From: Candidatus Tiamatella incendiivivens
GTDB lineage: Archaea; Thermoproteota; Thermoprotei_A; Sulfolobales; Acidilobaceae
Assembly (NCBI GenBank): GCA_015522635.1
Contig: WALW01000027.1
Location: 124,001-188,000 of the forward strand
Length of the DNA: 64,000 bases
Direction: 5' to 3'
Shown here: positions 29,395 to 35,847 of the stretch, in pieces
Position numbering within the stretch: position 1 is the stretch's first letter
Layout: the number at the start of each line of letters is the position of its first letter
The notes under the pieces: model-generated
The model's database searches: none
The model's input: only the letters and a program-made list of their open reading frames with translations
What the model was told of the DNA's origin: nothing
Position numbers and translations under genes: made by a program

Positions 29395-29673
29395 ATGGCT
29401 GATAGATCTGTCAAGGAAGCTTTATTCCAACAAGTGGAAGAGAATATCCCCATAGATGACGTGGTTGAATGGTTATATGAGGACTTCGGAGTGCATGCTG
29501 GACGGAAAAAATGGAGTAACCTAAAAAGAGCAACCCTGAAATCAACGGATATCAAACCGCAAGATATGGCCATACTATTAATGGACCATGATATACAACC
29601 AAATGAAGGGGCTTGGGATGTCCAGCCTAGAAGAGGTCTGTCAACTAATCCGAAACCTAGCCAAGATAGCTGA
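29395..29673 (+). CDS. Small protein of unknown function, overlapping the DUF4443-like gene
   Basis: A 92-aa acidic protein (MADRSVKEALFQQVEENIPIDDVVEWLYEDFGVHAGRKK then WSNLKRATLKSTDIKPQDMAILLMDHDIQPNEG). The composition and helical periodicity look like real coding sequence. The C-terminal 18 codons overlap the start of the next gene in another frame. Upstream in-frame codons to 29272 run through the argF promoter region, so I begin at the ATG at 29395. Family unknown. Confidence 0.5.
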   Translation: MADRSVKEALFQQVEENIPIDDVVEWLYEDFGVHAGRKKWSNLKRATLKSTDIKPQDMAILLMDHDIQPNEGAWDVQPRRGLSTNPKPSQDS

Positions 29674-30250
29674 ACCTCGGAGAAACATTTACCCAGGCTT
29701 TAATAAGGCACACGTCTTCCTAGCCATAACATGGGTCTCGCAGTCTCCTAAAAGCAGGCTTTTCCTAGAGAAAAATCTAGATATCGGCGAAGCATCTGTT
29801 AAAACACTGATCAAACGGTTAAAAGAGGAAGGTTTGATCGAAACTAGCAAACACTCAGGGTCCATGGTAACAGAGAAAGGAATGCGAATTGCCACGAAGC
29901 TAGTGTCCCAAATAAGAATATACAGGGCTACCTGTAATCCAACTAGTGAGAATGATCTCCTAACACTTATACCAAGTATACCTCCTCCAAAAGAAATGGT
30001 AGAAGTCTATGTTGTAAGAGACTATCTAGTTAGATCAGGATGTAATATATCCCTTATAGGAGGTTACACTCCAAAGAAACTGTACGCCCCTGGTGTAGAC
30101 ATACGTTATCTTAATAGTATCAGAAAATGTATTGAGGAATCATCTAATCTAGGACTATATAATGATCAAGGAGTTTTTGTGTTTTTCCCGAGGGATAGCC
30201 TCTCTAAGTGCCTAGACGGAATATTTTCATTCTTCTTGTCTTTATGTTAA
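29618..30250 (+). CDS. Winged-helix protein, DUF4443-like
   Basis: A 210-aa archaeal protein. The N-terminal 85 residues are a winged helix (KAHVFLAITWVSQSPKSRLFLEKNLDIGEASVKTLIKRLKEEGLIE, then TSKHSGSMVTEKGMRI). The C-terminal part (YVVRDYLVRSGCNISLIGGY... PGVDIRYLNSIRKCIEE) matches my recollection of the archaeal DUF4443 domain. The ATG at 29618 follows GAAGGGGC. It may be a transcriptional regulator. The stop codon itself lies inside the first GTTAAC of the repeat region described next. Confidence 0.7.
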   Translation: MSSLEEVCQLIRNLAKIAEPRRNIYPGFNKAHVFLAITWVSQSPKSRLFLEKNLDIGEASVKTLIKRLKEEGLIETSKHSGSMVTEKGMRIATKLVSQIRIYRATCNPTSENDLLTLIPSIPPPKEMVEVYVVRDYLVRSGCNISLIGGYTPKKLYAPGVDIRYLNSIRKCIEESSNLGLYNDQGVFVFFPRDSLSKCLDGIFSFFLSLC

Positions 30251-30259
30251 CTCAAAAAT

Positions 30260-30277
30260 GTTAACCGGGGAGTTAAC
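30260..30277 (+). repeat. 18-bp near-palindrome, copy 1 (downstream of whiP)
   Basis: GTTAACCGGGGAGTTAAC. It matches the reverse complement of copy 2 (31342-31359) at 16 of 18 positions. Each half is GTTAAC around a G4 core, so a dimeric protein could bind it. Confidence 0.75.
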
Positions 30278-30323
30278 AAACTATTAGTTTAAAAGTATAA
30301 CCTACTACTTCCAAAGAGCTCTA

Positions 30324-30386
30324 ATTATTGTAAGATGAAATAATTATAAAAAGTGTAATACATCAAGTATTATTGTAAGATGAAAT
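30324..30386 (+). repeat. 18-bp direct repeat, two copies at 45-bp spacing
   Basis: ATTATTGTAAGATGAAAT occurs at 30324-30341 and again, identical, at 30369-30386. The following bases are also partly shared, so the unit is about 45 bp. No open reading frame covers it. Confidence 0.75.
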
Positions 30387-30485
30387 TTGATCATTATACA
30401 AAAACCTGTCGTAATACTCATATAAAGGCATATATCAGATTATATTGATAGTTACGATAATATCTACTGAGGTAGATGTAGTGGA

Positions 30486-31262
30486 TTATGCTATAGTAGA
30501 ATTCTCTTTTCTGCACATATCCTCTATGTATGCCTTTACTCTACGGGTAAATCCTACTCGGATGCCTAGCCTACGATCATTATATATATAAACGATCTGC
30601 TTTGTTTGCAAATCCCTTGTAACCTTGAGGATAAACGGTAGTTCTGCATGAAGCTTTTCCTGGATTTGATCTAGATACATATATGATGATCCCCAATTGG
30701 CTAAGTTGTCTACTAATATTTGAAGCACTTCTAGTTCTTCTTCATTTAACCTCTGTTTTAGTATGTTAAATACGCATTGAGGGTCAATGTTTCCTAATTG
30801 TACCCGAATTTTTTGTGGTTTATTGTCTGATTGTTTGGTTTGATTAACAATGAATGACAACAATTCACTTGTTTCCTGGGATCTTAAAGGTTTTTTCTTG
30901 TGGTTTTTTGTCTGATGTTTATTTTCTCCTAGAAGCTGTTTGGCTATAGCTACATACTCACTGAATCTAGTTGCAAGGGTTCTTTCCACAATGCTTTTAG
31001 CATAGTCTTCCCCCTTTGGAGTCAGATACCACAAACCGTTACTATATTCTAGGTATCCTCTAGTTCTCCAGTACGATAGGTAGCTTGATACGTATTTTGT
31101 TTCAACCCCAACAACCTGAGCGATCTCAGCAGCTCTCATGGGTTTGGATAGTAGGAGGACTAGTGCAGCTTCTATAATTTTGCTCCTAGGACCTCCCCGG
31201 GTCTTTGTTGACTTAGCTACCTCTTCTGCAATGTATTCAAGCAAATTCCTGTAGTCGTTCAC
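30486..31262 (-). CDS. whiP: Winged-helix initiator protein WhiP (candidate)
   Basis: WhiP is a crenarchaeal double winged-helix protein, distantly like Cdt1, that binds a replication origin. The 258-aa protein has an N-terminal winged helix (IIEAALVLLLSKPMRAAEIAQVV, VETKYVSSYLSYWRTRGYLEY, NGLWYLTPKGEDYAKS). A hydrophilic linker with KNHKKK follows, then a C-terminal winged helix (ANWGSSYMYLDQIQEKLHAELPFILKVTRDLQTKQIVYIYNDRRLGIRVG). The double layout and the WGSSYMYLDQIQ/RRLGIRVG segment are what I remember of the family. GTG start with AAGGGG upstream. Repeats flank the gene on both sides. Confidence 0.7.
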   Translation of the reverse strand: MNDYRNLLEYIAEEVAKSTKTRGGPRSKIIEAALVLLLSKPMRAAEIAQVVGVETKYVSSYLSYWRTRGYLEYSNGLWYLTPKGEDYAKSIVERTLATRFSEYVAIAKQLLGENKHQTKNHKKKPLRSQETSELLSFIVNQTKQSDNKPQKIRVQLGNIDPQCVFNILKQRLNEEELEVLQILVDNLANWGSSYMYLDQIQEKLHAELPFILKVTRDLQTKQIVYIYNDRRLGIRVGFTRRVKAYIEDMCRKENSTIA

Positions 31263-31341
31263 ATCTACCCCTTGAAGTATATTGGATTTGAGACAAGAAT
31301 ATGAGGATCTTCTCGGTATTACTTTGTCTTTTATTGTCTTC

Positions 31342-31359
31342 GTTAACTCCCCAGTTAAT
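31342..31359 (-). repeat. 18-bp near-palindrome, copy 2 (upstream of whiP)
   Basis: On the minus strand ATTAACTGGGGAGTTAAC, differing from copy 1 at two positions and in inverted orientation relative to it. It lies in the 99-base gap between whiP and nre, about 80 bases upstream of the whiP start, so it could also be an autoregulatory operator. Confidence 0.75.
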
Positions 31360-31361
31360 CT

Positions 31362-32594
31362 TCAGGGTAACCATTTATCTAGTCTGGATTGTAGGCATGC
31401 CTTTCTGATAAGATAGCTTTCCTTAACTAGTTTCTTAACATCATATCTAACATATTTGTTTAAGGCTTCTATAAGTTCTTGTATAGTTCTTGGTTTGTTA
31501 ACTGGAGGGTGAACAAGCGCTTTTCTCACAGTCTCACGGATTTGCCAGTTACCAACAGGAGCATAGTATGAGGGGAATACTTCTCTTATAATCAAAACAG
31601 CAGCTTGGCGATGAAGACTGTATAGTTTCTCTACTACTGATAATCTAGCAGCCAGATAGCCTCCATCAATTTTATCAAATTTACCTCTATGATCTTCTTG
31701 GACCTTAACTATGGCTGGCTTATCATAGCTTGGAACCCATGGCGTTGAGGGGTACCATATTTCTATCCATTCCGCTTCATATAATTCTGGTAGGAAAATA
31801 ATCGTATAGGAGTTTCCAATGTAATATCTATAGTATAGCTGGGCTTCATTGATAATGGAATATGATCTTATTTCACGTATCATTCTATCGGCTATGATAG
31901 AGTCTACGGCAGTTATTCCCCATCTAGTAGGAACTATTTTCCTATTCCTCAATGTACCGGTCATTCCTAGAGTGAATGCCTTGATAATATTGTAAATATT
32001 GATGCCATGCCTATATAGATACCAAACTGCTTTACTGGATTTTATGTCGTCTGTAAGAATCTTCTCGATAGGCTTTGGAATACAGGGGTTTTCTTCAATA
32101 GTAACCTTTCTTGCCGGAGATGCTGGACCCATGGGTTTAGTTGTTCCGTTAAATACAAGGGAAGGCTTGGGTTTTCTCTCTAATATGACCTCCGAGGATA
32201 CAGGTTTAATAGAGACAGCTGCTAGGGAGAGCTCTTTGTTATACAATTCCCAAGGATGTATTGCTTCTATCCTAATAATGCCTGATATGGTTTGAGATCG
32301 TAAAGCGATTATTCTTCGCAGTGAGTACTCTTTATTAGCCCATGTTAGGGGGTCATCGTGGATGGATGGATTAGTGGATCCCGGAGTAGTTGTATAGTAA
32401 AGTCTTACATATGGGTAACCGTGTTCTCCTACTAGCACTGATGGCGGGGTAGGTGCCTCCACATCGTTGTCTTTAATTAACTGAACTCCATGAACCTGCC
32501 ATTTATATCTCTCTAGAAGCGGGCAGTATGGGAGGCCGCAAAGCCGTTTATACCCCTTGCATTTAGCGCATAATGAGGGGTTTATCCTAGTCAC
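31362..32594 (-). CDS. Archaeal DNA repair protein of the Nre family
   Basis: Nre proteins take part in archaeal DNA repair and bind PCNA. The 410-aa protein starts with a zinc-finger-like C-AK-C-KGYKRL-C-GLPY-C and contains the conserved SVLVGEHGYPYVRLYY segment near residue 55. It ends QSRLDKWLP, which fits the short PIP box Q-x-x-(L)-x-x-W-(L) used by Nre to dock on PCNA. It is the last gene of the long cluster starting with MBF1 and lies next to whiP, placing repair and replication genes side by side. Confidence 0.9.
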   Translation of the reverse strand: MTRINPSLCAKCKGYKRLCGLPYCPLLERYKWQVHGVQLIKDNDVEAPTPPSVLVGEHGYPYVRLYYTTTPGSTNPSIHDDPLTWANKEYSLRRIIALRSQTISGIIRIEAIHPWELYNKELSLAAVSIKPVSSEVILERKPKPSLVFNGTTKPMGPASPARKVTIEENPCIPKPIEKILTDDIKSSKAVWYLYRHGINIYNIIKAFTLGMTGTLRNRKIVPTRWGITAVDSIIADRMIREIRSYSIINEAQLYYRYYIGNSYTIIFLPELYEAEWIEIWYPSTPWVPSYDKPAIVKVQEDHRGKFDKIDGGYLAARLSVVEKLYSLHRQAAVLIIREVFPSYYAPVGNWQIRETVRKALVHPPVNKPRTIQELIEALNKYVRYDVKKLVKESYLIRKACLQSRLDKWLP

Positions 32595-34250: not shown

Positions 34251-35252
34251 TCATCTCTGATAAGGAGAGTTTAAAGGGTTTGGAATTTGCTCCTCTAGGA
34301 AATTAATGGTTTTTAATGCTATTCTAAATGATAGAGGAGGAGGCACTGCTTCTCCGATCTGATTGTATTGAACGTCTTTGCTTCCAAGAAATATATGATA
34401 ATCTGGGAAACCCATTAGCCTGGCTTGCTCTCGGACAGTTAAAAGTCTGTTCTCATATGGATGTATAAATTGCGAGGATCCTAGAACTGTAGGTGCTATG
34501 TGCTTGGGATTCAGCCTAATTAAATTAGGAAGCTTTCTTCCTCCAGCACCTGTATATTTGATTAAGCCTTTACCCCATTTAAGATATTTGAGTTTCTTCA
34601 ATTTGCTTGGTGATAGGGTAGTGTATTCGTGGTTAGGCGGGTATGGAGAGCTTGGAGGGGGTAGTCCTTGCAGAGCTTCTTCAACCGTTATATGAGGGTT
34701 TTTTCCTAGTTCTATTCTTATATTAGATATGAAGACGCGTGTTCTTCTGCTCGGAACACCGTAATCCTCTGCTTTGATAATGTTAAAATACACGTTCTTG
34801 TAGCCGTATCTGACGAGTTCTCTCCTTATGGAGTCTTTAATTTCATTTACTAGGATACCTTTAACATTTTCTATGAAGAAGATTTTGGGCTGTACCTCAC
34901 CTATTATTCGTATAGCGTGAAGGAATAACTGGCCGGAAGGGTCACGATACAGTCTATCAATAGGGTGCTTCTGCCTTTTAGGATTTGCTCCAGTAAACGG
35001 TTCACAAGGTGGGCTAGCTATTATTACATCTGTATTGTCACGGCATCCAACGTATTCTAAAATAGTATCGAAGGTTATTTTCTTAATATCTTCTGATAGA
35101 ACTATGGAATGAGGGAAATTTTCCTTGTATGTTTTAGAAGCAGCTGGGTGATTTTCTACTGCTAATACACTCTTGAACCCAGCTTCTTCGAATCCTCGGG
35201 AGAAACCTCCTGCTCCCGAAAACAGGTCAATAAGTCTATAGTTGAGTTTCAT
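34251..35252 (-). CDS. DNA (cytosine-5-)-methyltransferase
   Basis: A 333-aa C5 methyltransferase. Motif I is LIDLFSGAGGFSRGFEEAGF. Motif IV with the catalytic cysteine is IASPPCEPFTGAN near residue 82, motif VI is FFIENVKG, motif VIII is YGVPSRRTRVF, and motifs IX/X are LTVREQARLMGFPD and YNQIGEAVPPPL. All catalytic motifs are present. The target recognition region lies between residues 200 and 250. I use the ATG at 35252; it overlaps tfe by 17 bases. No restriction endonuclease gene is adjacent, so it is an orphan enzyme or a non-restriction one. Placement in the tfe operon argues for vertical maintenance. Confidence 0.93.
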   Translation of the reverse strand: MKLNYRLIDLFSGAGGFSRGFEEAGFKSVLAVENHPAASKTYKENFPHSIVLSEDIKKITFDTILEYVGCRDNTDVIIASPPCEPFTGANPKRQKHPIDRLYRDPSGQLFLHAIRIIGEVQPKIFFIENVKGILVNEIKDSIRRELVRYGYKNVYFNIIKAEDYGVPSRRTRVFISNIRIELGKNPHITVEEALQGLPPPSSPYPPNHEYTTLSPSKLKKLKYLKWGKGLIKYTGAGGRKLPNLIRLNPKHIAPTVLGSSQFIHPYENRLLTVREQARLMGFPDYHIFLGSKDVQYNQIGEAVPPPLSFRIALKTINFLEEQIPNPLNSPYQR

Positions 35253-35847
35253 CCCGCTTAATTTCCCTCTGAAGGTTCTCAATTATTCTTTTCAATATCT
35301 TTAGGTTGATCTCTCTGTCCTCATCCAGTTCAAGTTCTCCACCACATCTAGGACATACAAACTCATACTCAAATGCTTCTGGAAAAGTATATCGTGCACC
35401 ACATTTAGGGCACACGTAGATTTCATTTTCTTCCTCGAACTGATATCGAGTTTTTAGTTTTCCTAGAACATTCTTTTTGCGGCTTAGTAATATGAGGTTT
35501 AGTGTGCTTTTATTGATCCTCCAGAAGAACCTTGTTTCTCCTGTTTTTGTTCTACCACGCTGATAGGTAACAAGTTTGTTTTCCAATAGTAAGAGTAGTA
35601 TTCTCCTTATTTGGGTTTCTCTCATTCCAGTAATTTGCTCTAACTCTTCATCGCTCAAGCCTTTGGTTTCAGCTTTCTCGTATAATATTCTAAATATAAG
35701 AGAAGCTTCTTCAGGCGTTATATTGGCTAGGATGGGCGATCGTTTATAAACTTTCTCCTTGTAGAACAATAATTTTATGAGAACATCTAATTCCTTCAGT
35801 ATTTCCTTTTCATCAACTTTGTTCTTGCTACTTTTTCCATCCAACAC
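35236..35847 (-). CDS. tfe: Transcription factor E, alpha subunit
   Basis: TFE alpha, the homologue of TFIIE alpha, helps promoter opening by archaeal RNA polymerase. The 203-aa protein has the N-terminal extended winged helix (ILANITPEEASLIFRILYEKAETKGLSDEELEQITGMRETQIRRILLLL) and a C-terminal zinc ribbon C-PK-C-GARYTF... C-PR-C near residues 145-170. The length is typical. The start overlaps the end of aTrm56 by 20 bases, and the C5 methyltransferase start overlaps its stop, so the genes are tightly coupled. The crenarchaeal partner TFE beta is not in the window. Confidence 0.95.
   Translation of the reverse strand: MLDGKSSKNKVDEKEILKELDVLIKLLFYKEKVYKRSPILANITPEEASLIFRILYEKAETKGLSDEELEQITGMRETQIRRILLLLLENKLVTYQRGRTKTGETRFFWRINKSTLNLILLSRKKNVLGKLKTRYQFEEENEIYVCPKCGARYTFPEAFEYEFVCPRCGGELELDEDREINLKILKRIIENLQREIKRDETQL

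Follow-up and report, generated by a model that had tools for sequence, protein, structure and literature searches.

Is the DNA around a whiP gene in a Tiamatella-like member of the Acidilobaceae a replication origin, and what do the two inverted 18-bp dyads that bracket this gene contribute to it? Where archaea have several origins, each is served by a different initiator, and the ucm element and its binding protein, UBP, have become clear only recently. We addressed both questions in the window, a 64,000-nucleotide stretch of an assembly of 1.45 Mb in 27 contigs, and in related genomes and plasmids. Among the relatives, we take G014 to be A. pernix, G022 A. camini, G005 Caldisphaera lagunensis, and G020 Acidilobus saccharovorans; G143 is presumably M. 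sedula, G157 S. acidocaldarius, and G164 S. tokodaii. We consider it likely that the locus is an oriC3-type origin with its core at 30278-30485, and that this core, together with whiP, is bracketed by two dyad border elements (GTWWACYGGGGRGTWWAC) that are not specific to WhiP.

A putative oriC3-type origin beside whiP

The repeats that drew attention to the locus are all present (Table 1). The two 18-mers lie inverted around whiP where the original prediction placed them, as do the additional GTTAAC and the two exact copies of the direct repeat, which start 45 bp apart. The AT-rich surroundings it described hold for the gap between the left 18-mer and whiP, but the AT-rich repeats are confined to that gap.

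Table 1. Features of the whiP locus, in window coordinates.
Feature	Coordinates	Strand	Basis or remark
Winged-helix gene, PH0730-like N domain	29588..30250	+	Pfam PF22167, E=2e-7
Isolated GTTAAC half-site	30246..30251	+	Conserved only in part
Left 18-bp border element, GTTAACCGGGGAGTTAAC	30260..30277	+	9 bp past the stop of the upstream gene
AT-rich convergent intergenic core (proposed)	30278..30485	.	208 bp, 74.5% AT, ucm-like element inside
Direct repeat copy 1, ATTATTGTAAGATGAAAT	30324..30341	+	Little kept in congeners
Direct repeat copy 2, ATTATTGTAAGATGAAAT again	30369..30386	+	Conserved block (TCTTACAATAATAC on the whiP strand), adjoins ucm in three congeners
ucm-like element, ATTATACAAAA	30393..30403	+	10/11 match to ucm ATTATACAAAC, 82 bp past the whiP stop
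whiP homolog, 258 aa, GTG start	30486..31262	-	ORF and orthology
Right 18-bp border element, ATTAACTGGGGAGTTAAC	31342..31359	-	2 bp past the nre stop, ~80 bp ahead of the whiP start
nre (archaeal Nre DNA-repair protein), upstream of whiP	31362..32594	-	Pfam Nre_N E=4e-88, Nre_C E=3e-30
Degenerate third 18-mer, 3 mismatches, within the nre coding region	31497..31514	+	Motif search of the window

In the WhiP model, a disordered linker with a conserved LSFI...DNKxQ motif connects two predicted winged-helix domains, and AlphaFold pLDDT is mostly about 90 in both domains. A Foldseek search with this model returned mainly MarR-type winged-helix proteins with weak scores, and no Cdt1 among the matches listed. 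whiP orthologs occur in 41 of 60 relatives and in all Sulfolobaceae genomes searched; the protein of the nearest congener, G002, is 87% identical, and the named whiP orthologs of Metallosphaera have an exact or near-exact ucm adjoining them.

Four lines of evidence make it very probable that the whiP neighborhood corresponds to Sulfolobus oriC3 and to the A. pernix origin that depends on whiP: whiP orthology, the conserved downstream ucm, the AT-rich core, and the published marker-frequency data for A. pernix (PMC10769869). The original prediction had drawn the same equivalence with Sulfolobus; on these grounds it stands, but the core is narrower than the 30246-31361 interval it proposed. As in both known systems, a whiP ortholog stands beside an AT-rich intergenic region with a ucm at a single chromosomal locus. 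The window locus differs from them in being bracketed by GTTAAC-type 18-mers. Marker frequency in A. pernix reveals exactly two origins that are active, corresponding to those of Orc1-1 and WhiP (PMC10769869), and by homology to these data the locus in the window would be expected to fire. Against this reading stand the inexact ucm match (10/11) and the local GC skew, which shows no switch at 30-31 kb, although the skew here is governed mainly by gene strand.

The proposed duplex-unwinding and initiation region would be the gap between the left 18-mer and whiP, whose AT content is in the top 0.3% of same-size segments of the window. We worked out the ucm sequence from wild-type and mutant oligonucleotides given in PMC12141716. 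Firing of S. islandicus oriC1 needs this element, which is also reported from oriC2, from oriC3, and from the two A. pernix origins. Among 54 named whiP loci, 28 have a ucm with at most one mismatch at a distance of 59-203 bp downstream of the gene, and it is exact in several, including Metallosphaera-type loci. The window and its congeners G001 and G002 share four blocks here, namely the ucm block GGTTTTTGTATAATGATCA, TCTTACAATAATAC, GATATTATCGTA, and the 18-mer, with a slight shift at the ucm and the 18-mer within the conserved blocks of one congener. The paired ATTATTGTAAGATGAAAT copies are the only exact 18-nt direct repeat with a spacing below 200 bp in the window. The suggestion that these AT-rich repeats form the unwinding element survives in part: in the two sister genomes, one copy corresponds to the conserved TCTTACAATAATAC block, but the other is absent or degenerate.

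We found no ORB element in the oriC3 core of the window. At two Pyrodictiaceae loci (G131:C1:874680 and G051:C1:1426244), ORB-like sequences lie ~42-47 bp past the 3' end of whiP, as if an oriC3-type origin there had an ORB, and nORB sites have been described in S. islandicus (PMC3718332).

The 18-mer pair at oriC1 and its relation to known elements

Searching the window for the 18-mer with up to three mismatches returned the two sites flanking whiP and the copy within nre, whereas shuffled sequence gave a mean of 0.05 matches and never the three observed. The position of the third copy is intact in the sister species G002 and carries one mismatch in G001.

Genome-wide, the same asymmetric pair recurs at C19:282869 (+) and C19:283617 (-). 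Only 2 bp separate the end of the second site from an ORB, which belongs to an ORB-ucm-ORB array (with a ucm-like element) that adjoins the TiaS gene. We located oriC1 independently by its ORB pattern, with the ORBs of this genome clustering at C19:283637-283945. Its orc1-1 gene is 28 kb away, and therefore the 18-mer goes with the origin and not with the initiator gene. In this lineage (L009, which is the genome's own C19, 6286-8000, with L155, L267, and L272), oriC1 lies between the genes for TiaS and the gamma subunit of 2-oxoacid:ferredoxin oxidoreductase, unlike in the Sulfolobaceae, where the equivalent ORB array adjoins orc1-1.

The placement beside ORBs extends well beyond this genome. 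In 20/20 motif-bearing genomes whose ORB cluster was examined, an 18-mer with at most four mismatches lies 1-2 bp outside an outermost ORB. A. pernix carries an identical variant, GTATACCGGGGGGTTAAC, at two oriC1 sites and two oriC3 (whiP) sites. Two Metallosphaera genomes have orc1-1 flanked by 18-mers; in M. sedula, they also stand around whiP and, 0.8-1.7 kb or more away, around a second orc1 paralog, and S. acidocaldarius has an 18-mer ~0.9 kb upstream of an orc1 paralog near coordinate 1. Among the Pyrodictiaceae and genus g7 genomes examined, which are without the GGGG form, looser dyads such as GTTAACCAGGTGGTTAAA or GTAAACCAATGGTTTAC follow the outermost ORB.

The original prediction cast the 18-mers as initiator sites of this origin or of WhiP. 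That view is hard to maintain for a motif whose same pair sits at oriC1, which abuts an ORB, and which is dispersed over the chromosome and multi-copy in plasmids. A broader version would make the 18-mers WhiP recognition sites wherever they occur, with WhiP acting as initiator at oriC3 and in an accessory or regulatory capacity at oriC1 and at the scattered copies. By predicted structure, WhiP binds DNA with two winged-helix domains, its gene is flanked by 18-mers in most Acidilobaceae and in Metallosphaera, and the motif-rich families (f1, f11, f4-g26) all have whiP, whereas families without it average ~0.5 motifs per genome. We nevertheless regard this version as rather unlikely, given that the motif is missing from the Pyrodictiaceae, family f3, and genus g7 although they have whiP, that the most exact placement of the 18-mer adjoins ORBs, which are Orc1 sites, and that a published ChIP study places WhiP at oriC3 (PMC5134839). 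The oriC1 copies, the plasmid copies, and the phyletic pattern likewise weaken the idea of a site for WhiP only.

The 18-mer matches none of the ORB, ucm, SegB, and Orc1-2 motifs. Its G4 core had been likened to the G-run of the ORB (TCCANNNGAAACNNNGGGG); the two do share a G4 run and an origin location, but the 18-mer does not fit the ORB sequence, has another symmetry, and is separate from ORBs at many loci, making it a distinct element that abuts the ORB at oriC1. The ucm, or UBP site (ATTATACAAAC), offers a good precedent as a short conserved origin element that is also dispersed on chromosomes. It is, however, AT-rich and inside the core, while the 18-mer is larger, forms a dyad, and lies at the edge, and sequence rules out their identity. 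SegB sites are also palindromic, dispersed, and in some cases near origins, but their sequence is unrelated and their consensus, TCTAGASTCTAGA, is not matched by the 18-mer (PMC12284271). The Orc1-2 DDRE is an ANTTTC hexamer in promoters (PMC9738581), and neither strand of the 18-mer contains ANTTTC.

The 18-mer could correspond to the palindromic C2 and C3 sites of Sulfolobus oriC1 (PMC3718332). Under this reading the dyads would be bound by Orc1-2 or Orc1-3, in keeping with the recognition of C2 and C3 by Cdc6 proteins (PMC3718332) and with a likely Saccharolobus genome in which a palindromic 18-mer abuts the outermost ORB close upstream of orc1-1. Yet oriC3 is without C sequences (PMC3718332) although the 18-mer flanks oriC3, and Orc1-2 has a published site of its own, the ANTTTC hexamer (PMC9738581); we consider such binding by Orc1-2 or Orc1-3 improbable. 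In S. islandicus, the linker scan published for oriC1 ran over ORB3-DUE-ORB2 (PMC12141716); the 18-mer seems to fall beyond that stretch, past the outermost ORB on the side of orc1-1.

A family of sites in chromosomes and conjugative plasmids

We counted the family by its core, TTAACYGGGGRGTTAA, with one mismatch allowed, for which reversed-pattern controls were near zero. Most Acidilobaceae genomes have 2-31 copies each, all 29 Sulfolobaceae have 2-21, and one further genus has 9-14; other families average 0-1. Shuffles and reversed-pattern controls rule out chance occurrence, and the 18-mers elsewhere in the genome are a real site family. The genome-wide search that the original prediction had proposed thus returned no mere chance matches, but it did return copies elsewhere, the oriC1 pair included. 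One copy (L262, G028:C1:848898) coincides with the NSPVN codons of phosphoglycerate kinase, and some coding copies are probably due to chance.

Many copies stand away from any known origin and dense clusters occur in conjugative plasmids, and therefore an exclusive origin role is unlikely. Nor is the element essential to whiP origins everywhere, since those of the Pyrodictiaceae and genus g7 lack the GGGG-form 18-mer. In the Thermodiscus-like genus g7 (L080, L083, L027), whiP is flanked by CTAGGGAGGGACCCCTAG and not by a GTTAAC-type 18-mer. The surroundings of whiP in this genus hold ~20 copies of GGGWCCCT in 8.7 kb, possibly a switch of site specificity or another dense repeat.

Two dense chromosomal clusters, at 1311-1353 kb in S. 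tokodaii and at 395-427 kb in S. acidocaldarius, look like integrated conjugative plasmids, and within the S. tokodaii cluster a gene has matches among the type IV secretion proteins that conjugative plasmids of Sulfolobus encode. The plasmids themselves are rich in the motif: with up to four mismatches we found 21 copies in pNOB8, 15 in pARN3, 25 in pHGQ25, 15 in pYN01, and 18 in pAH1, against 0-1 for the reversed control. As in the chromosomal 18-mer, the plasmid motif combines the core ACYGGGGRGT with an 18-bp dyad in many copies per plasmid, and this core is nearly invariant throughout chromosomes and plasmids. The arms vary, reading GTTAAC or WTTAAC in chromosomes and GTAAAC...GTTTAC in plasmids, with the reverse, GTTTAC...GTAAAC, in pHGQ25. 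In pNOB8 (L227, 15328-16331), four plasmid dyads fall in a gene-free stretch between annotated genes, possibly a putative origin section. A plasmid search with the WhiP protein of the window returned no match.

Greve and colleagues reportedly called such repeats of Sulfolobales conjugative plasmids 'recombination motifs' in 2004. The 18-mer could accordingly be a signature of recombination or mobile elements, a conjugative-plasmid motif left at the borders of captured replicon modules. The 15-25 copies in each of the five plasmids, the clusters in the integrated plasmids of S. tokodaii and S. acidocaldarius, and the copies around initiator-gene modules all fit such an account. We give it little credence: the plasmid arm variants are unlike the chromosomal GTTAAC/WTTAAC forms, the ORB junction is exact in two families, which implies constraint and no relic, and oriC1 is an ancestral origin that was not captured. 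A text search of open papers for the 18-mer motif gave nothing relevant, and a link between the conjugative-plasmid motif and chromosomal origins was not found in the searchable papers.

Gene context and a possible border role

The position of the 18-mer relative to genes provides a further view of its function. With ORFs called mechanically, 23/31 sites in Caldisphaera (p=4e-11) and 10/21 in Acidilobus (p=0.002) are intergenic. These two genomes have 33 intergenic sites between them. Of these, 14 fall no more than 30 bp past a stop codon (12% expected, p=1e-5), and just two come within 60 bp of a start (27-28% expected, p=0.002). The Sulfolobaceae form a small set, with 2/7 sites in the stop-codon context, and the bias is significant only in the two genomes with many sites.

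The original prediction had named autoregulatory operators as its alternative, and both the oriC1 positions and the avoidance of gene starts weaken it. In a fuller form, an autoregulated winged-helix regulator, either WhiP or the DUF4443-type protein of the linked gene, would use the 18-mers as operators, with the dispersed copies as its regulon. This form can call on the right 18-mer ~80 bp ahead of the whiP start, on the ORB-linked copy close upstream of orc1-1 in Sulfolobaceae, and on the linkage of the DUF4443-type gene to whiP. It sits poorly with the scarcity of sites near starts and the preference for gene 3' ends in Caldisphaera and Acidilobus, and with the oriC1 neighbors in Acidilobaceae, which present the ends of metabolic or tRNA-modification genes and no promoters; we find it very improbable. 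The 3'-end bias and start avoidance would instead suit a roadblock, insulator, or anchor at an origin edge.

The symmetry of the element narrows its function in other respects. At the orthologous whiP-flanking site the GGGG strand flips within one genus, and hence polarity is not functional; this rules out polar functions (fork barrier, KOPS-like, Chi-like). An RNA hairpin is rejected by inspection, as the commonest inner combination, C..A, is unpaired. The dyad symmetry makes a dimeric binder likely, and WhiP and the linked DUF4443-type protein are candidates. The gene for the latter (29588-30250) converges on whiP and is linked to it in both Acidilobaceae and Sulfolobaceae. Its product has a profile match to the PH0730 structure 2p8t (E=6e-21), and the S. 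tokodaii homolog carries PF14544 (DUF4443), a DUF4443-type assignment that holds for the Sulfolobaceae homologs. It is a candidate binder by linkage to whiP only: the family is order-wide and is found also where the 18-mer motif is absent, and we rejected it as the sole explanation by co-distribution.

Returning to the origin-border reading, we envision that a dimeric DNA-binding protein would occupy the 18-bp dyad. Bound past the stops of origin-facing genes, it would set the limits of the origin, either as a block to incoming transcription or as an anchor for origin regions in the nucleoid. UBP and the initiator, which would be WhiP here and Orc1-1 at oriC1, would meanwhile act on the core. 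Judged from sequence patterns, the 18-mer is likely a border element at origins with unrelated initiators in Acidilobaceae and Sulfolobaceae, possibly with a role in insulation or architecture. A plausible, if tentative, extension is that a dedicated Sulfolobales origin-border dyad of 18 bp, with one conserved reader protein, marks the edges of Orc1-1, WhiP, and probably Orc1-3 origins and was adopted in multiple copies by conjugative plasmids. If true, the border dyad would join ORB and ucm as the third element that origins share, with the function of an insulator or anchor. The putative whiP origin itself is of a known type; what may be new is that origins share a border element and that this element is the same as the dyad of conjugative plasmids, and the 18-mer offers a concrete handle on origin delimitation and on the movement of replicons between plasmids and chromosomes.

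Finally, a C5-cytosine methyltransferase-like gene lies near whiP in the window (34251-35282, minus strand), and in Caldisphaera lagunensis a similar gene adjoins a whiP-proximal 18-mer (G005:C1:1278240).
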